Shown here: positions 2,071-10,230 of the stretch, piece by piece
Numbering within the stretch: position 1 is the first letter of the stretch
Layout: each line of letters begins with the position of its first letter
Source: Hydrogenophaga sp.
Lineage (GTDB): Bacteria; Pseudomonadota; Gammaproteobacteria; Burkholderiales; Burkholderiaceae_C
DNA: 13,261 bases
Assembly: GCA_030684755.1 (NCBI GenBank)
Contig: JAUXXN010000026.1
Span: forward strand, 1-13,261
Direction of reading: 5' to 3'
Program-made: the position numbers and the translations under genes
The notes under the pieces: generated by a model
What the model was told of the DNA's origin: nothing
Databases searched by the model: none
Seen by the model: only the letters and a program-made list of their open reading frames with translations

Positions 2071-2095
2071 GTGAAGTATGTACTTAAAAAACCCT
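2071..2095 (+). repeat. IS1595 element left terminal inverted repeat (25 bp)
   Basis: Begins GTGAAGTATGTACTT and ends AAACCCT. It pairs with 4558-4582 with two mismatches. A small CCCTGA-AAG-TCAGGG hairpin (2092-2106) starts inside its inner edge. Confidence 0.94.
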
Positions 2096-2110
2096 GAAAG
2101 TCAGGGCATG

Positions 2111-2141
2111 AAAAAACCGGCTCAAGGGCCGGTTTTCTTTT
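2111..2141. terminator. Hairpin terminator, likely bidirectional, at the left edge of the passenger region
   Basis: The stem AAAACCGGC / GCCGGTTTT (2113-2121 with 2128-2136) encloses a 6-nt loop. On the minus strand the hairpin ends in TTTTTT, so it terminates the 45-aa gene, whose TGA stop lies in the loop. On the plus strand it ends in TTTTCTTTT, so it could also block transcription entering the element from the left. Confidence 0.8.
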
Positions 2142-2259
2142 GAGGTGGCGGTACTGGAGCCTTGGGCTTGTTCGGCTTCGGCGGTGTGCTCAGCATCCGT
2201 CTGAGAACGTCATCCGGTTTTGCTGCGTGGTCTTGCTGTTGTTGCTTATCTCGGTTCAT
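2122..2259 (-). CDS. Pro/Lys/Gln-rich 45-aa micro-protein, IS1595 passenger
   Basis: The frame runs MNRDKQQQQDHAAKPDD, then VLRRMLSTPPKPNKPKAP, then VPPPQKKTGP. The core V-L-R-R-M-L-x-T-P-P-K-P-x-K-P-K resembles a short motif I recall from many small uncharacterised proteobacterial proteins. That resemblance is the main reason to believe this frame rather than the overlapping 70-codon plus-strand frame at 2162-2374. The stop codon lies in the loop of a terminator hairpin whose T-run follows in the same direction, which is further support. There is no signal peptide or membrane segment; a KQQQQD run and a basic, proline-rich tail suggest a disordered protein. The ribosome site is weak (ACGAAG before the ATG). 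It is transcribed divergently from the 161-aa gene. Function unknown. Confidence 0.6.
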   Translation of the reverse strand: MNRDKQQQQDHAAKPDDVLRRMLSTPPKPNKPKAPVPPPQKKTGP

Positions 2260-2388
2260 GACTTCGTTTTTGAGTGTTGATGAAACCAGGCGATCAAACC
2301 AGAAGACAGTACATGTGTCCAGTGCTGTTGAAAAACCTAGTCAAGTGGCGAATTCAAGCAAAAAGAAAATTTAGTTTTGGCTTTTGCT

Positions 2389-2416
2389 TTGACTTTCAAT
2401 TGGTTTCTGGCACAAT
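2389..2416 (+). promoter_or_regulatory. Sigma70-type promoter of the 161-aa passenger gene
   Basis: TTGACT at 2389-2394, a 16-bp spacer, then CACAAT at 2411-2416 match the -35 (5/6) and -10 (4/6) boxes. The expected transcription start falls at about 2423, the A of the ATG, which would give a leaderless mRNA. No Shine-Dalgarno sequence is present upstream of the ATG, which fits. Confidence 0.55.
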
Positions 2417-2422
2417 CCATTT

Positions 2423-2908
2423 ATGTCGAAAATTTCAGAGTTCATCGAAGCCACTTTGCTAGAGAAGCGCGAAGCGCTCTTGGTGGAGCGAAACAAAGCG
2501 TGTGCGCCTTGGGATACCAAGATAGCAGAGATTGACGCTTTCTTGCGTCAGTCAAGGATGGGCGCAGATCTTGATCACAACAAGCCGAAGACGGAGCTTG
2601 GGAAAACGACTCTGGTGGAGAACATACTAACTGCGCGCAAGGCCAACAGGATGGCCTTGGAGGCGGCAGAGCTGGTTCTCAAAGAATATAGCCAGATGAA
2701 GACAGGGGAGTTGTGGCAGCTCGTTCAAGAACGAGGTGTGCAACTAATTGCAGCCAACCAAGAGGAGCGCTTTGGGCAGCTTCTTTCTGGTGCAAAAGAC
2801 ATTTTTCAAAGTGACCGCAGGTTGGGCTGGTCACTAAAGAGTGAAGCCCCACTAGGTGCTACCAACACCGATGGGGCTTCGAGTGCAACAGAGTCTGACG
2901 GCTCATAA
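2423..2908 (+). CDS. 161-aa protein: N-terminal coiled coil plus winged-helix-like C-terminal domain, IS1595 passenger
   Basis: I do not recognise a named family. Residues 1-45 are strongly helical and charged (FIEATLLEKREALLVERNKA, then KIAEIDAFLRQ) and probably form a coiled coil. Residues 65-90 are another helical, Lys/Arg/Glu-rich part. Residues 90-140 (KTGELWQLVQERGVQLI, then FGQLLSGAKDIFQSDRRLGW) have the helix-helix-wing spacing of HARE/HB1-type winged-helix domains, with L-S-x-x-K-D-I-F before a Gly-Trp turn. A Ser/Thr/Gly tail ends the protein. A DNA-associated or partner-binding role is therefore possible, but it is an inference from pattern. The start is fixed by a promoter that places transcription on the ATG itself; there is no Shine-Dalgarno. 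Codon use is visibly less GC-rich than in host genes. It converges with the 73-aa gene across strong hairpins. Confidence 0.82.
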   Translation: MSKISEFIEATLLEKREALLVERNKACAPWDTKIAEIDAFLRQSRMGADLDHNKPKTELGKTTLVENILTARKANRMALEAAELVLKEYSQMKTGELWQLVQERGVQLIAANQEERFGQLLSGAKDIFQSDRRLGWSLKSEAPLGATNTDGASSATESDGS

Positions 2909-2924
2909 CTTGAAAGGAACCAAA

Positions 2925-3014
2925 GTGAAGACACTTTGGATGCTGCCCGTAGGTAAAGCCCTGCGGAGAGCCTTTAGCAGTCTAGCGTTGCGAACTAGAC
3001 TGCCAGGATTTTAG
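2925..3014 (+). CDS. Possible 29-aa micro-ORF with GTG start
   Basis: An AAAGGA site lies 7 nt before a GTG that opens 29 codons, reading (V/M)KTLWMLPVGKALRRAF and ending RLPGF. It begins 16 bp after the 161-aa stop, so it could be translated from the same mRNA. The product would be basic with an amphipathic middle. Against it, the second half lies inside the perfect hairpin at 2977-3003, and I know no homologue. It may equally be a structured untranslated region. Confidence 0.2.
   Translation: MKTLWMLPVGKALRRAFSSLALRTRLPGF
2977..3003. repeat. Perfect 9-bp inverted repeat (hairpin)
   Basis: GCAGTCTAG (2977-2985) and CTAGACTGC (2995-3003) flank a 9-nt loop. No T-run follows on either strand, so it is not a standard terminator. 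It sits between two convergent passenger genes just before a larger hairpin. Confidence 0.75.
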
Positions 3015-3059
3015 CACCATGGGCATAGCTTTGGCTATGCCCATTTTGGTAGCTGCTAA
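3011..3059. terminator. Long hairpin between convergent passenger genes, terminator on plus strand
   Basis: ATGGGCATAGC (3019-3029) pairs perfectly with GCTATGCCCAT (3034-3044) around a TTTG loop and is followed by TTTT on the plus strand. Outside it, TTAGCA (3011-3016) can pair with TGCTAA (3054-3059) and CC with GG, which extends the structure. It would end transcripts of the 161-aa gene and could slow transcripts of the 73-aa gene from the other side. Confidence 0.65.
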
Positions 3060-3082
3060 GCATCGCCGCCAAACAGAGGCGG

Positions 3083-3304
3083 TTATTTGCTCTTGCTTGG
3101 GATGATTGAGATCAGGAATCTGAGGAGCGGCGACAAGAGCGCCGTCATGCCCCGGCTTACCGGTATCTTTGCAACCAGCTCGCCGTCAAAGGTGGCGTGC
3201 TGGAGCCGAGCAACACGCTTTCGAGCGTCATCAGATGAGTCAGCACGAATCTCAAAAACGCATTCAGCGCCTTGATGGTTGTAGCTGAACAGGTAGGTTT
3301 TCAT
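3083..3304 (-). CDS. 73-aa hypothetical protein, IS1595 passenger
   Basis: The start MKTYLFSYNHQG at 3304 has GGAG seven bases upstream, which rules out the longer frame beginning at 3325. The protein opens with a beta-strand-like stretch (KTYLFSYNHQGAECVFEIRA). A helix with SSDDARKRVARL follows, a common layout of small proteins that rework arginine- and aspartate-rich helices. It ends with a hydrophobic segment (MTALLSPLLRFLISIIP) and a basic tail, which may touch the membrane. I know similar small hypothetical proteins but no function. A small hairpin CCGCC-N7-GGCGG follows the stop. It is divergent from the DUF1508 gene with only 23 bp between start codons. Confidence 0.7.
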   Translation of the reverse strand: MKTYLFSYNHQGAECVFEIRADSSDDARKRVARLQHATFDGELVAKIPVSRGMTALLSPLLRFLISIIPSKSK

Positions 3305-3311
3305 ATCAATT

Positions 3312-3321
3312 CTCCAAGGAG
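3312..3321. promoter_or_regulatory. Back-to-back ribosome binding sites for two divergent genes
   Basis: CTCCAAGGAG contains AAGGAG for the plus gene (6 nt before its TTG) and, on the other strand, TTGGAG for the minus gene (7 nt before its ATG). There is no room for promoters between the two starts. Each promoter must lie inside the other gene, so the two mRNAs would overlap antisense at their 5' ends. Confidence 0.75.
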
Positions 3322-3327
3322 CCAAAA

Positions 3328-3498
3328 TTGGCTTACTACGTTTACAAAGATGCGCTCGGCCAGTGGCGGTGGTATCTGCTCGCCGCTAACAACCGGAAGA
3401 TCGCCAACTCCGGCGAGGGTTACCACAACAAGCAGGACTGCCTCCATGCAATTTCTCTGGTGAGCACCAGTGGTAATTGCAAGGTCTACATGGCCTAG
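3328..3498 (+). CDS. DUF1508 (YegP/UPF0339-type) single-domain protein, 56 aa, TTG start, IS1595 passenger
   Basis: Too short for a routine ORF cut-off and missed by ATG scanning because it begins with TTG. The frame reads LAYYVYKDALGQWRWYLLAA, then NNRKIANSGEGYHNKQDCLH, then AISLVSTSGN. This is the DUF1508 pattern: F/Y-x-V/I-Y-K-D, Q-W-R-W-x-L-x-A-x-N-x-x-x-I-A-x-S-G-E-x-Y-x-N-K-x-D-C-x-x-A-I. One copy is present, whereas YegP itself carries two. The ribosome site AAGGAG lies 6 nt before the TTG, and a textbook terminator follows 16 bp after the stop. The family's biochemical role is not established to my knowledge. A pentapeptide AISLV and a short tail take the place of the second repeat. 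Confidence 0.85.
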   Translation: MAYYVYKDALGQWRWYLLAANNRKIANSGEGYHNKQDCLHAISLVSTSGNCKVYMA

Positions 3499-3514
3499 TT
3501 CTAGACCAGTCTTC

Positions 3515-3552
3515 AGGCCCCTGCGCGTAAGCTCAGGGGCCTTTTTGTTTTT
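3515..3552 (+). terminator. Rho-independent terminator of the DUF1508 gene
   Basis: AGGCCCCTG (3515-3523) and CAGGGGCCT (3534-3542) form a perfect 9-bp stem, with an inner GC-GTAA-GC mini-loop, followed by TTTTTGTTTTT. There is no T-run on the minus side, so it acts for the plus strand only. Confidence 0.92.
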
Positions 3553-3575
3553 GTAGCAGACGCACAAGTAAATCG

Positions 3576-4520
3576 TCAAACGTTGAACGGCGCTTGCTGC
3601 TCACCAATCCGCCGATAGGTCAGGCGCTTGCCGGTGATGCCCTTGAGCGCTTCGGTGGCGCGGTCTGTGTCGCTGTAGCCTTGCGACTGGCGGGTGTTCC
3701 AGCGGAAGTCAAACTCGGCGCAGTAGCGCTGCAGATGCTTCTCGCTCACGCTGTGGAACGTGCCATTCAAGCCGCGCTTGAGGATGGCGAACGATGATTC
3801 GACCGTGTTGGTGTTGATGTCTCCGCGAGCGTATTCCTTGGCTCCGTGCTTCACCACGCCGTGCCCCGAGAACTCGCGGCCGACCTTTGTATACACGGCA
3901 GCCTCATCCGTCATCAAGCGGGCCTTGGCATCGATTTGAGACTTGAGGATCGGGCGCACGGTTGCAGCCGTCACGTTCGCAACATGGTAGGTGCGCTTTT
4001 CTCCGTCGCGCTCGACCAAGGACACGATCTTCATCTTGTGGTCATAGCCGCGAGCGCCGTTGCGTTGCTTTCCAGTGTTGCCCCAATACGTCTCATCTGC
4101 TTCAACGATGCCAGATGAGCCGGGGCCACCGAGCGGCGATGCGCTCTCGCTTGTCATCGCTTCGCGGATGCGGTGGGACATGAACCATGCGGTCTTGTAG
4201 GAGACGCCAAGCAGGCGTTCCAGTTGCTTGGCAGAAATTCCCTTCTTGCTGGCGCACATCAGATGCACGGCTTGGAGCCAAACATTCAGGGCAATCTTGG
4301 ATCGCTCGAACACGGTGCCCACAGTGACGGTGAACTGTTCATAGCAGTCGTTGCACTTGAACAGGCCAGGACGGTATGACTTGCCTTCCAGCTTCAAGGG
4401 CTTACGCACCGATCCGCAGTGAGGGCACACAGGACCATGCGGCCAGCGCAGTGCTTCAAGGTGCTCACGGGCCTTGTCTGCGTCTTGGAAGTGCGGTTGG
4501 TTCAGGATTGCTTCAGCCAT
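3576..4520 (-). CDS. IS1595-family (ISXO2-like) transposase, 314 aa
   Basis: Mobilises the 2.5-kb element. The N-terminus carries a zinc ribbon (CPHCG with C32/C35, and CNDC with C56/C59), then a helix-turn-helix-like part (GISAKQLERLLGVSYKTAWF, 95-113). The DDE core shows D142 in VEADETYWG, D205 in LMTDEAAVY, and E241 in NTNTVESSFAILKRG, followed by the family hallmark GTFHSVSEKHLQRYCAEFDF and RWNTR. Length and motif order are normal and no frame break is seen. The ATG at 4520 has GGAGAA six bases upstream. Its promoter is in the right inverted repeat, and its start codon sits in a hairpin arm (separate entries). It converges with the DUF1508 gene. The terminator between them acts only on the other strand. 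Confidence 0.96.
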   Translation of the reverse strand: MAEAILNQPHFQDADKAREHLEALRWPHGPVCPHCGSVRKPLKLEGKSYRPGLFKCNDCYEQFTVTVGTVFERSKIALNVWLQAVHLMCASKKGISAKQLERLLGVSYKTAWFMSHRIREAMTSESASPLGGPGSSGIVEADETYWGNTGKQRNGARGYDHKMKIVSLVERDGEKRTYHVANVTAATVRPILKSQIDAKARLMTDEAAVYTKVGREFSGHGVVKHGAKEYARGDINTNTVESSFAILKRGLNGTFHSVSEKHLQRYCAEFDFRWNTRQSQGYSDTDRATEALKGITGKRLTYRRIGEQQAPFNV

Positions 4521-4541
4521 GCCATTCTCCGATGGCTGAAG
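4511..4541 (-). promoter_or_regulatory. Hairpin over the transposase start codon (fold-back control)
   Basis: In the mRNA sense, CTTCAGCCAT (4541-4532) pairs perfectly with ATGGCTGAAG (4520-4511), the first ten bases of the gene. The GGAG ribosome site is in the 11-nt loop. A transcript beginning at the element's own promoter (about 4533) lacks nearly all of the upstream arm and would be translated freely. A read-through transcript from outside would form the hairpin and hide the AUG. Confidence 0.75.
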
Positions 4542-4569
4542 TATCGCTCTACGTGTTAGGGTTTGTCAA
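4540..4569 (-). promoter_or_regulatory. Transposase promoter, -35 inside the right inverted repeat
   Basis: TTGACA (4569-4564) is a perfect -35 box within the 25-bp terminal repeat. An 18-bp spacer leads to GATACT (4545-4540), 4/6 to the -10 consensus. The predicted start near 4533 leaves a 13-nt leader containing GGAGAA. Confidence 0.65.
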
Positions 4570-4582
4570 GTACATACTTCAC
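4558..4582 (-). repeat. IS1595 element right terminal inverted repeat (25 bp)
   Basis: On the minus strand it begins GTGAAGTATGTACTTG and ends AAACCCT. It pairs with 2071-2095 and contains the -35 box of the transposase promoter. Confidence 0.94.
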
Positions 4583-4752: not shown

Positions 4753-6063
4753 TCATGCACGGATCACGGGCATGTCTTCCCACCGGGTCGTGTACTGCGG
4801 GGTGCGCCGTTCCTGCTTCATGGCCCAACGCCGGCGGTCCCCTGCAAGCCCGGTGCTGGCGAGCAACACGGTGCCGCGGCCGTAGCGCCGGTTGATCTGA
4901 TCGAGTGTCCCCATCAACCCCCCCAGGTCCTTGTCCTGCTCAGGTTCCAGGTCCAGCTCATCCTGCTGAACTGAGTCCGGTTGCAGTTCGAGAAGCATCA
5001 CACCCGCCTTGGCGTACAGAAACCCGGGCTTGAAAATCTGAGTCAAGCCGGCCAGTGCGGCTTCCGCAATCAGGGTCGAGTCGGCCGTCGCGCGTCGCAT
5101 AGGAACGACGATGGACCCGCTGTATTGGGGGTCAGGTCGGAACGGGCTGGTCCTCACGAACGCATGAACCAGTTTGGCCAATCCATGCTGGCGACGCAGC
5201 TTCTCCCCTGCCCTGCTGGCGAACTCACTGATCGCCTCTTGCAGGTCAGCAAGCTCAGTCACTGGACGACCGAACGAGCGCGTGCACGCGATCTCCTGTT
5301 TGTCTGGGGCCACATCTTCCAGATCCACACATGACTGCCCCTGCAGCTCTCGCACCGTGCGCTCCAACACCACCGACCATCGGTTGCGCACGGTGGCCAG
5401 GTCCATCCGTGACAGCTGCAGAACGGTTTCAATCCCGGCTTGCTTGAGCTGGAATGAAATCCTCTTCCCCACGCCCCAGACCTCGTCCACCGCTGTGTTG
5501 GCCAGCACAGCCTCCAAGGCAGCACGGTCCAGACTGGCCAGGTTGCAGACCTGGGCCATCTCGGCGGGGTAACTGCCCGGCTTGCGTTCGGCGGTCTTGG
5601 CAATGTGGTTGGCCAGCTTGGCCAGGGTTTTTGTGGGCCCCAGTCCGATGCAGCAGGGAATACCCACCCACCGCAGCACACGCTCACGGATCGTTCGGCA
5701 ACGCTTGATCAGGTCCCCTCGAATGCCGCTCATGTCAACGAAGGACTCGTCGATGGAATAGATCTCCTGGCGGTGGCCCAGGCCGGCAACCAAGCTCATC
5801 ATCCGGTCACTGAGATCGCCGTACAGACAAAAATTCGCCGACAGTGCGACCAGTCCGTGTGTCTCCTGCAGGTGTTTGATCTTGAACCACGGAGCGCCCA
5901 TGGCGATACCCAGGGCCTTGGCTTCGTTGGAGCGCGCAATGGCACAGCCATCGTTGTTGGACAGCACGATGACGGGTTGACCGTTCAGGCTCGGTCTGAA
6001 CACCCTTTCGCACGACACATAGAAGTTGTTGCCATCCACGAGGGCATAGAGCGAAGTGACCAT
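4753..6063 (-). CDS. umuC: DNA polymerase V catalytic subunit UmuC (Y-family), 436 aa
   Basis: Carries out error-prone translesion synthesis with cleaved UmuD' during the SOS response. The palm-domain metal ligands are D10 in LYALVDGNNFYVSCERVF and D105/E106 in IYSIDESFVDMSG. The SNNDGCAIARSNEAKALGI motif (35-53), GIPCCIGLGPTKTLAKLANH and the helix-hairpin-helix part VDEVWGVGKRI follow. The little finger includes RSFGRPVTELADLQEAIS. Near the C-terminus, QQDELDLEP occupies the place of the beta-clamp motif (QLNLF in E. coli) but lacks the final Phe, so clamp binding may be weak. The ATG at 6063 is preferred over a TTG two codons earlier because AGGG lies 8 nt before it. It begins 9 bp after umuD, so the two are one operon. 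Confidence 0.97.
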   Translation of the reverse strand: MVTSLYALVDGNNFYVSCERVFRPSLNGQPVIVLSNNDGCAIARSNEAKALGIAMGAPWFKIKHLQETHGLVALSANFCLYGDLSDRMMSLVAGLGHRQEIYSIDESFVDMSGIRGDLIKRCRTIRERVLRWVGIPCCIGLGPTKTLAKLANHIAKTAERKPGSYPAEMAQVCNLASLDRAALEAVLANTAVDEVWGVGKRISFQLKQAGIETVLQLSRMDLATVRNRWSVVLERTVRELQGQSCVDLEDVAPDKQEIACTRSFGRPVTELADLQEAISEFASRAGEKLRRQHGLAKLVHAFVRTSPFRPDPQYSGSIVVPMRRATADSTLIAEAALAGLTQIFKPGFLYAKAGVMLLELQPDSVQQDELDLEPEQDKDLGGLMGTLDQINRRYGRGTVLLASTGLAGDRRRWAMKQERRTPQYTTRWEDMPVIRA

Positions 6064-6072
6064 GCGCAATCC

Positions 6073-8697: not shown

Positions 8698-9957
8698 TTA
8701 ACTCAGAGCGGTCACTGGAAGGGCAATCGCCGCGCGTACTTTTCGTGCTTCCAGCACCTGCTCGGCCACCATATCGGCGGTGACCGCCGACAGCGTCCAC
8801 CCCAGATGCCCGTGCCCGGTGTTGTAGAACACGTTGGTGTGACGACCAGCGCCTACGCGGGGCATCATGTTGGGCAGCATGGGGCGCAGGCCGGCCCAAG
8901 GCACCACTTGGCGGGTGTTGATGCCAGGGAAGCACTGGTTCACCCAAGCGGTCAGCGGGCGAATGCGGTCGGCGCGAATGTCGCGGTTGGCGCCATTGAA
9001 CTCGGCGGTGCCGGCGATGCGGAAACGGTCCAGACCCAAGCGGCTGGTGACGAGTTTGGTTTCATCGTCGAGCAGGCTCACAGTGGGCGCCGATTGCTGG
9101 CTCTGCTCATCGGGCAGGTTGACCGTGATGGAATAGCCTTTGACCGGATAGACGTTGACCCGATCGCCTAGCTGGGCGGCGAAGTCGCGGCTGCCCACAC
9201 CGGCGCAGACCACCAAGCCATCAAAGGTCCGCGAGTGTGCTCCTTCGACATCGTGGGCGGTGACAATGGCCTGAGTGCCATCGCTGTGCAAGTTCGTCAC
9301 ATCTTGACCGTAGAGGCATTTCACTCCCAGTCGCTCAGCTGCGGCTGCGAGGCCCACAGTGAACTTGTGGATATCGCCGGTAGCATCGCTTTCGGTGTAA
9401 AAACCGCCGTAATAGGTGCCGGCCAATGTGGGCTCGATGGCGCGCATTTCTTCGGGCGTGACCGCGCGGCGGGGGAGACCGCCGAGGGCCAACATCTTGG
9501 AAACTTCAGCCGCGTGGTTGAAACCCTTTTTGTCGCGGTAGATGTGCAGGATGCCCTGTCGTTTCAAGTCGAAGTCCACGCCTTCGGCTTCGGCCCAGGC
9601 AAACAAGTGGTCGCGCGCGGCGATGGCCAGCTTCGTGGTTGCGATCGTGTTTTCGCGGTAGTTCGGGATGTTGGCGATGAACTCGGCGAACCACGAAATC
9701 TTGTGCCAGCTGGGTTTGGGGTTCACCAGCAAGGGAGCGTCGTTTTTCAGCATCCACTTCAGGCCCTTGAGGATGGTGGAGGTGTGGTTCCAGACCTCGG
9801 CGTTGGAGGCTGAGAGCTGGCCGCCGTTGGCGAACGAAGTCTCCATCGCAGCGTAGCGATGCTGCTCGAACAGGGTGACGGCAAAGCCGCGCTTGGCCAG
9901 CGCGTAGGCGGTGGTGACACCGGTAATGCCACCACCGATGACGGCGATTGATTTCAT
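8698..9957 (-). CDS. dadA: DadA-like FAD-dependent D-amino-acid dehydrogenase, 419 aa
   Basis: Oxidises D-amino acids (in some relatives also glycine) to the 2-oxo acid and ammonia, passing electrons to the respiratory chain. The N-terminus is a Rossmann FAD site (IAVIGGGITGVTTAYALAKR), with an acidic residue ending strand 2 (LFEQHRYAAMETSFANGGQL). The SFANGGQLSAS stretch, the VYPVKGYSITV segment and the C-terminal GLRPMLPNMMPRVG followed by NVFYNTGHGHLGWTLS are hallmarks of DadA. Where DadA often has EPWA, this protein has AEVWNH, so substrate range may differ. The ATG at 9957 has GGAGC 8 nt upstream, and its GG can be paired by the riboswitch platform. It lies downstream of a TRAP operon on the same strand and is preceded by a tandem glycine riboswitch, so glycine is a likely inducer and perhaps a substrate. 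Confidence 0.93.
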   Translation of the reverse strand: MKSIAVIGGGITGVTTAYALAKRGFAVTLFEQHRYAAMETSFANGGQLSASNAEVWNHTSTILKGLKWMLKNDAPLLVNPKPSWHKISWFAEFIANIPNYRENTIATTKLAIAARDHLFAWAEAEGVDFDLKRQGILHIYRDKKGFNHAAEVSKMLALGGLPRRAVTPEEMRAIEPTLAGTYYGGFYTESDATGDIHKFTVGLAAAAERLGVKCLYGQDVTNLHSDGTQAIVTAHDVEGAHSRTFDGLVVCAGVGSRDFAAQLGDRVNVYPVKGYSITVNLPDEQSQQSAPTVSLLDDETKLVTSRLGLDRFRIAGTAEFNGANRDIRADRIRPLTAWVNQCFPGINTRQVVPWAGLRPMLPNMMPRVGAGRHTNVFYNTGHGHLGWTLSAVTADMVAEQVLEARKVRAAIALPVTALS

Positions 9958-9964
9958 GTGGGAA

Positions 9965-10029
9965 GCTCCAAACGTCAGAGGTGTTGGGTGCACCGCGCAA
10001 TATGCGTGACACACGCCCCCTCTGTTTGG
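9965..10029 (-). promoter_or_regulatory. Expression platform of the glycine riboswitch (SD-masking stem)
   Basis: In the mRNA, CCAAACAGAGG (10029-10019) at the 3' side of aptamer 2 can pair with CCTCT-GAC-GTTTGG (9981-9968), whose last GG belongs to the dadA ribosome site GGAGC. The same CAGAG can instead close aptamer 2 with CTCTG upstream. Glycine binding should favour the second pairing and free the ribosome site, an ON switch acting on translation. No T-run is present, so termination is unlikely. Confidence 0.6.
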
Positions 10030-10210
10030 AACCTGAGAGATTCACCACCCCGCGGGGGGAATGGCTTGCTCCTGCGGTGGGCCAGGAGACGAATCCTGGC
10101 CGCTCTTCAGAGTTGTGATGCATTGTAGATCGGTCCTTTTGCCTGAGAGTTTCCGGGGCGGTTGCTCCTTCGGCGCTGGCCTGCGTGGCAGGTCAGTCTC
10201 TCCCGATCGA
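10019..10210 (-). ncRNA. Tandem glycine riboswitch
   Basis: Both aptamers are recognisable on the minus strand. Aptamer 1 (about 10208-10131) has CGGGAGAGAC, GCCGAAGGAGCAACC, AAACTCTCAGGCAAAAGGAC. Aptamer 2 (about 10113-10020) has CTCTGAAGAGCGG, an extra stem GGCCAGGA/TCCTGGCC, CCGCAGGAGCAAGCC and GAATCTCTCAGGTTCC. A short linker joins them, as in classical cooperative glycine switches. It begins about 20 bp after the dctM stop and ends about 60 nt before the dadA ATG. I find no convincing promoter in the 20 bp, so the RNA either begins inside dctM or is part of the TRAP transcript. Confidence 0.95.
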
Positions 10211-10230
10211 CTGCGTGATTGTCGCTTAAC

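Follow-up and report, generated by a model that had tools for sequence, protein, structure and literature searches.

A cargo-carrying IS1595-family element of Hydrogenophaga with a proposed structured RNA, and stop-anticodon tRNAs in its sister elements

The Hydrogenophaga sp. contig JAUXXN010000026.1 raises the question of whether the small genes lying between the ends of a transposable element form a unit that travels together, and what benefit they could bring to the element or its host. The element occupies positions 2071-4582 (2512 bp) of the 13,261-nt stretch analyzed here, the whole of which is referred to as the window, and is a complete member of the IS1595 family. Beside its transposase it holds the four small open reading frames (ORFs) of the original prediction, encoding 45, 161, 73, and 56 amino acids (aa; Table 1). 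The explanation we regard as best, and as moderately probable in full, is that of a cargo-carrying IS1595 transposon with a two-unit cargo: the first unit would comprise the 161-aa protein together with an RNA formed by the 3' end of that protein's gene, and the second a divergent pair encoding the 73-aa protein and a DUF1508 protein.

The element and its group

The two 25-bp arms are identical at 23 positions when read as inverted repeats, and are bounded by identical octamers, both AAAGAAAA, representing an exact 8-bp target duplication; from base composition, about 1e-8 such combinations of repeats and duplication would be expected by chance in the window. The intact transposase matches DDE_Tnp_IS1595 (PF12762, 1.4e-34) and Zn_ribbon_IS1595 (PF12760, 8.5e-14), and passes the curated IS1595 cut-offs (NF033547, 5.6e-61, 206.1 bits against a cut-off of 75). 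The family features that were looked for, namely an ISXO2-like DDE domain with a zinc ribbon, the 8-bp duplication, and terminal inverted repeats, were all found, which confirms the identification made in the original prediction. Residues D142, D205, N238, and E241 are invariant in all six aligned transposases and are candidate catalytic residues. Judged by its sequence, this is a real element of a known family with a new combination of cargo. The anatomy is observed directly; the transposase would act on the 25-bp ends and move the whole 2.5 kb, leaving the 8-bp duplication behind.

Loci similar to the window's transposase were collected from 399 genomes of the family, one genome from another family of the order (G990), plasmids, and viral contigs. 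Any match at all was found in 26 of the 399 family genomes, the element's own included, many of the pieces being shorter than 50 bases; 210 plasmid records matched, of which 8 were fetched and 7 scanned for ends (L067 is not among these), and the viral set consisted of the best 80 of 209 relatives. The 94 loci scanned for inverted repeats and an 8-bp duplication around the transposase (80 viral, 7 plasmid, 6 genomic, and the window) yielded 51 bounded elements (40 viral, 5 plasmid, 5 genomic, and the window), among which are near-identical contigs; bounds were accepted where repeats agreed at 16 or more of 22 positions and duplications at 7 or more of 8. The remaining 43 loci have no acceptable ends, and L035 was dropped as spurious and is outside the 51. 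The duplication is perfect (8/8) in 50 elements and the repeats agree at 18 or more positions in 50. Their median length is 2570 bp, the shortest being 1869 bp and the longest 5055 bp, with 906 to 4140 bases per element beyond the transposase match. Sizes from 900 bp were permitted, so the search itself does not account for the lack of bare insertion sequences, although the loci were selected for similarity to this transposase and 43 of the 94 were not bounded. The presence of extra DNA in all 51 suggests that a so-called insertion sequence in this group is usually a carrier.

The 45-aa protein appears to belong to the vehicle. Its family shares the core L-x-R-M-L-x-T-P-P-K-P-H, after which comes a basic tail rich in lysine, and a profile recovers it in 34 of the 51 elements at E <=1e-3 and in 36 at 0.05. 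Because this profile was seeded and refined on the elements themselves, the independent evidence is the flank control, in which 397 kb of flanking DNA gave a single match (E 6.6e-5). Strand and position of the gene vary between elements; in L048, an element of G990, a 61-aa gene is similar by motif alone and is not detected by the profile. The gene has the appearance of an accessory of the transposon group, and its product could serve as a hallmark for finding further members.

A proposed structured RNA at the end of the 161-aa gene

Relatives of the 161-aa protein are rare: a first search of 112 candidates gave 4 proteins, and a profile applied to 8000 candidates gave 14, the query's own included. 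The motif GWSLK is invariant in all 14, and in P0004 (51% identity over 57% of the query) the tail following it is nearly unchanged. Neither Pfam nor NCBIfam returned a match for the protein up to E 1, and comparison with solved structures gave none that was convincing (best E 0.033, to a designed helical bundle). The winged-helix character initially suggested for this protein finds weak support in a HARE-HTH match (0.0072) in 1 of 16 family members, but not in any Pfam, NCBIfam, or structural match of the protein itself. A widened profile searched against 398 genomes of the phylum gave five matches, corresponding to the element's own genome and four distant proteins (L056-L059) whose gene ends fold with z-scores of -2.73, -0.72, -0.03, and -0.12 against mononucleotide shuffles. 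L048, a 1962-bp IS1595 element, carries a 161-like gene with a different gene end. A peptide-pattern search of genome contigs gave 38 stretches and no relative, and weak partial matches within longer frames at L049, L053, and L054 were not used.

The last 25 or so codons of the 161-aa gene overlap the strongest-folding part of the window. For 2838-3055 the computed folding energy is -96.6 kcal/mol (z -6.62), and none of 200 shuffles was as stable; across 110 tiles on both strands (mean z -0.58, standard deviation 1.35), the two lowest scores overlap it, at -5.64 on the plus strand and -6.2 on the minus strand. As the minus strand folds as well, the strand of the proposed RNA is taken from that of the gene. 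Within the coding tail a 10-bp stem pairs 2842-2851 with 2872-2881 and, at the codon level, requires the residue flanked by E and P to change in concert with the one flanked by G and S. The tail pairs observed in the protein family (EAP/GAS, ESP/GLS, ENP/GFS, and EAS/EAS) each permit eight of eight Watson-Crick pairs, and in a four-by-four comparison of these tails no unobserved combination reaches eight by Watson-Crick pairing alone; of the 400 possible residue pairs, 23 would be compatible with the stem by chance at the middle position and 35 at the outer one. The tail is absent from P0014, L046, and L048. At L046 (3320-3550), a distant 161-aa relative on a prophage-like contig, the gene end is nonetheless strongly folded (z -5.39). 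These data suggest that 2838-3055 is probably a new structured RNA with a coding tail.

Several observations weigh against this reading. Two of the 13 tail-bearing proteins (P0005 and P0007, which combine EAP with EAS) reach only seven of eight pairs, and when G-U pairs are allowed the unobserved combinations ESP/GFS and EAS/GAS also reach eight. The DNA of a tail-bearing RNA was read in one case, and the covariation comes from proteins and represents few independent events. Rfam 15 returned no match at the gathering score in 2071-4582, and among seven sub-threshold matches in the element up to E 5 none falls within 2838-3055. The gene end in L048 is a plain hairpin with no excess structure (z -0.42, by the simpler mononucleotide shuffle). 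Together with the TTTT that ends the last hairpin and the equally strong folding of the minus strand, this last observation also agrees with an alternative in which the tail is kept for its protein sequence or for a DNA site, and the fold belongs to an ordinary 3' untranslated end with terminator-like hairpins; gene ends often carry G+C-rich hairpins. That alternative appears rather unlikely given that the paired residues co-vary as the stem requires, and that the structure spans about 200 nt with several hairpins ahead of the last one. The stretch may otherwise form a DNA cruciform.

Searches with the DNA of the proposed RNA returned no relatives from plasmids or phages and, from the 398 phylum genomes, nothing beyond the element's own genome and a stretch of 38 bases in G416. 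A back-translated tail pattern matched three genome contigs, where no 161-like protein stood among the listed frames nearby, and these matches were taken as chance; the same pattern gave none in viral contigs.

Hairpins had also been proposed to insulate the small genes from one another. Those at 2092-2145, 3012-3056, and 3508-3552 do fold, but the last two are not listed by a consensus terminator scan, which found 4 sites compared with 2.9 in shuffles. The hairpin following the DUF1508 gene (window 3495-3550, plus strand) has a sub-threshold match to the small RNA BjrC68 (27.9 against 39 bits, E 0.00016).

Table 1. Features of the element in the window, and transfer RNAs of three sister elements (given by element and position)
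Feature	Position	Strand	Basis
8-bp target duplication, left copy AAAGAAAA	2063-2070		read from sequence
Left inverted repeat, 25 bp	2071-2095	+	23/25 against right arm
Putative 45-aa accessory protein (DDVLRRMLSTPPKP...)	2122-2259	-	profile; family recurrent in transposon group
161-aa protein, possibly winged-helix; tail overlaps proposed RNA hairpin	2423-2908	+	ORF, protein family
Proposed structured RNA, overlapping 3' end of 161-aa gene	2838-3055	+	folding z -6.62
First hairpin, stem 2843-2850/2873-2880	2843-2880	+	covariation read from protein family
Last hairpin of folding stretch, stem then TTTT, possible terminator	3012-3055	+	folds; absent from terminator-scan list
73-aa protein, phrog_2920-like, head to head with DUF1508 gene	3083-3304	-	ORF, relatives, PHROG match
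56-aa DUF1508/UPF0339 protein	3328-3498	+	PF07411, PDB 3bid, PHROG match
Hairpin then T run, 3' of DUF1508 gene	3515-3542		folds; absent from terminator-scan list
IS1595-family transposase, 314 aa	3576-4520	-	Pfam, NCBIfam
Right inverted repeat	4558-4582	-	23/25 against left arm
8-bp target duplication, right copy AAAGAAAA	4583-4590		read from sequence
tRNA, anticodon UUA	L032 7365-7449		53.7 bits
tRNA, anticodon CUA	L033 6503-6584		56 bits
tRNA, anticodon UUA, beside tRNA-Ala	L048 1283-1366		60.1 bits

Elsewhere in the window, a profile scan places an IS5-family transposase to the left of the element (677-1672), and to its right lies a gene that by eye resembles a UmuC polymerase (4753-6069). 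Two tandem glycine riboswitch aptamers (10012-10215, minus strand; 67.7 and 45.4 bits) are found just upstream of a frame on the same strand (8698-10014) that by eye encodes an oxidoreductase.

Separable cargo units and the cargo of sister elements

The second unit is defined by the 73-aa and 56-aa genes, which lie head to head, their start codons separated by 23 bp; the former starts with an ATG that falls within a TTG-initiated frame of 80 aa, the latter with a TTG. The assignment of the 56-aa protein to DUF1508 was borne out (PF07411, 1.9e-11, 44.1 bits against a gathering score of 22), with a further match to PDB 3bid. For the 73-aa protein, 13 of 14 candidates are relatives, and the frame keeps 51-96% identity among them. 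The pair recurs in L139, a separate IS1595 element (inverted repeats 22/22, duplication 8/8) that also carries a gene resembling the 45-aa accessory gene, and in the viral contigs L050 and L051, which represent the same phage region and are counted once; in this phage, 45-aa and 161-aa genes are not nearby. At L050 5802-6210 the pair adjoins a gene that by eye resembles a large terminase.

It is possible, if less than probable, that the pair derives from a phage as a small unit of its own (serving, for example, anti-defence or growth control), and that the 161-aa gene is a passenger regulator which shares nothing with it but the vehicle. The terminase-like neighbor in the IMG/VR contigs is consistent with such an origin, as are the matches of both proteins to PHROGs of unknown function; three contigs that combine 73-like with 161-like genes argue against it. 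In one of these, P0008 (161-like) and P0020 (73-like) have the neighboring locus tags V4627_18645 and V4627_18640. The other two joins are inferred, P0003 with P0015 because both come from the same source and a contig of 2629 bp, about the size of the element, and P0005 with P0019 because they share a source and a contig size of 16783 bp.

The four genes had been proposed to travel as a single module, a reading that these occurrences partly support. The 161-like and 73-like genes do keep company on the three further contigs, and the 45-like, 73-like, and DUF1508 genes do so in L139; however, the 161-aa gene is missing from L139, the 161-like gene of L048 stands without the 73-aa/DUF1508 pair, and the phage shows another combination. 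By profile, each of the three cargo families occurs in two of the 51 elements (the 73-aa and DUF1508 families in the window and L139, the 161-aa family in the window and L048). The genes thus recur between such ends, but the full set of four was not seen twice as DNA: no second copy was found, and the 399 family genomes gave only short matches on the cargo side. The variation could also reflect a chance collection of unrelated fragments between IS ends, with no common function. ORF content does differ widely across the 51 elements, the 73-like gene being absent from 49 and the 161-like gene likewise, and the combinations in L139, L048, and the phage differ from that in the window. We nevertheless consider such a collection quite unlikely, in view of the contigs that join 161-like and 73-like genes (two of three by inference), the head-to-head arrangement of the 73-aa/DUF1508 pair in the window, L050, and L139, and the identity kept in the 73-aa frame. 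The preferred reading is accordingly phrased as two separable units on a common carrier.

What such cargo might do was approached through 127 mechanically picked ORFs from the cargo of the 50 sister elements, with one frame of L033 left out. These contain 33 Pfam families; the Pfam names given below are among the 25 listed. Toxin-antitoxin-like cargo includes PIN (5), PemK, PIN_10, DUF433, CopG, and SocA, in addition to BrnA. Restriction or methylation cargo includes D12 (3) and N6_N4 (2) methylases, N6_Mtase, Methylase_S, HSDR_N, Mrr_cat (2), and GmrSD_N, with HsdM, HsdS, and HsdR domains all represented among the sister elements, and PADLOC matched methylases and PD-Lambda-5 (2 members) there. 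Other cargo comprises DUF1828, DUF3800, Rap1a, P63C, and a transposase remnant. A PIN/VapC-type gene with a 266-288-aa neighbor occurs in the IS1595 elements L034, L062, and L063, from three sources.

Because the nameable sister cargo is mostly toxin-antitoxin- or restriction-like, a role in stabilization or defence is favored here: the cargo would persist by stabilizing the element or protecting its host. Two results tell against it: Pfam leaves at least 83 of these 127 ORFs without a match at 1e-3, a given named family being found in 1-5 of the 127, and no PADLOC model matched the window's four small proteins. Against the explanation as a whole stands the single copy in the element's own genome, an assembly of 3.62 Mb in 689 contigs with a completeness of 82.6%. 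That persistence would operate through the 161-aa protein as a DNA-binding regulator, with the 3' RNA as its regulatory partner, is put forward tentatively.

Stop-anticodon tRNAs in sister elements

Leucine-type tRNAs with stop anticodons were identified inside 3 of the 51 elements by ARAGORN and Rfam (Table 1), all three among the five genomic elements and none among the 40 viral or 5 plasmid ones; neither program found a tRNA in the window. A model of the three, with the cloverleaf written by hand, gave no further in-element match above 18.1 bits across 96 loci, the weak ones being in L091, L118, and L139. A weak tRNA-like match at L139 6686-6754 (19.7 bits against a gathering score of 29) lies in the element that also has the 73-aa/DUF1508 pair. 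In the three host genomes the model gave 28 further matches, and the nine that were read are all leucine tRNAs with an encoded CCA, which the three element-borne tRNAs do not have. The latter are 73-80% identical to one another and at most 74% identical to the nine host tRNAs, apart from which they form one clade (local support 0.995).

The idea that these tRNAs suppress the stop codon of the transposase found no support. The stops concerned are TAG, TAG, and TAA, but TAG or TAA ends the transposase in 37 of the 51 elements, and read-through would add 26, 31, and 48 codons. No description of stop-anticodon tRNAs as cargo of such transposons was found in the titles, abstract openings, and parts of listings that were searched. 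Along with the proposed RNA, they are the novel parts of the finding, and they raise the question of whether a transposon would gain from read-through of stop codons in its host. More speculatively, the IS1595 group marked by the LRRMLxTPPKPH protein may be a shuttle of small survival modules, some of them RNA-based, with an addiction- or defence-like regulator and structured RNA in the window and a nonsense-suppressor tRNA lineage of their own in the sisters; at present we hold this to be doubtful.

Comparison with known systems

In size the element fits the ISNwi1 subgroup of IS1595, whose members we take to be about 1.75-4.75 kb long with passengers. ISNwi3 is listed under this subgroup in PMC9670130. 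Passenger genes in IS1595-family tIS, such as MTnSag1/tISSag10 and tISCpe8, which are mobilizable elements, appear in PMC5704250. Like these tIS, the window's element has an IS1595 transposase, typical ends, and extra genes between them; unlike them, it encodes a small accessory protein and contains a strongly folding stretch, and its small ORFs match Pfam in DUF1508 alone. The gene carried by tISCpe8 is reportedly for lincomycin resistance, going by the title of a cited reference.

We know of no function for DUF1508/UPF0339 (YegP-like) proteins. The 56-aa protein resembles them in its domain and structure matches, and differs in that its gene stands head to head with a 73-aa partner. Among RNA-associated systems, one from 2017, described in PMC7609411, has tRNA-like genes near transposon genes; the sister-element tRNAs here differ in scoring as ordinary, leucine-like tRNAs with stop anticodons. 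Type III toxin-antitoxin systems, in which the antitoxin is an RNA, likewise have a small protein gene beside a structured RNA. In the window, the RNA instead overlaps and trails the protein gene; no tandem array was found in 2071-4582 at a score of 30 (one 20-nt repeat has two copies, 549 nt apart), and the 161- and 73-aa proteins have no toxin match in Pfam, NCBIfam, or PADLOC. Set beside these systems, the stretch at 2838-3055 is a candidate for a structured RNA that is new and has a coding tail.

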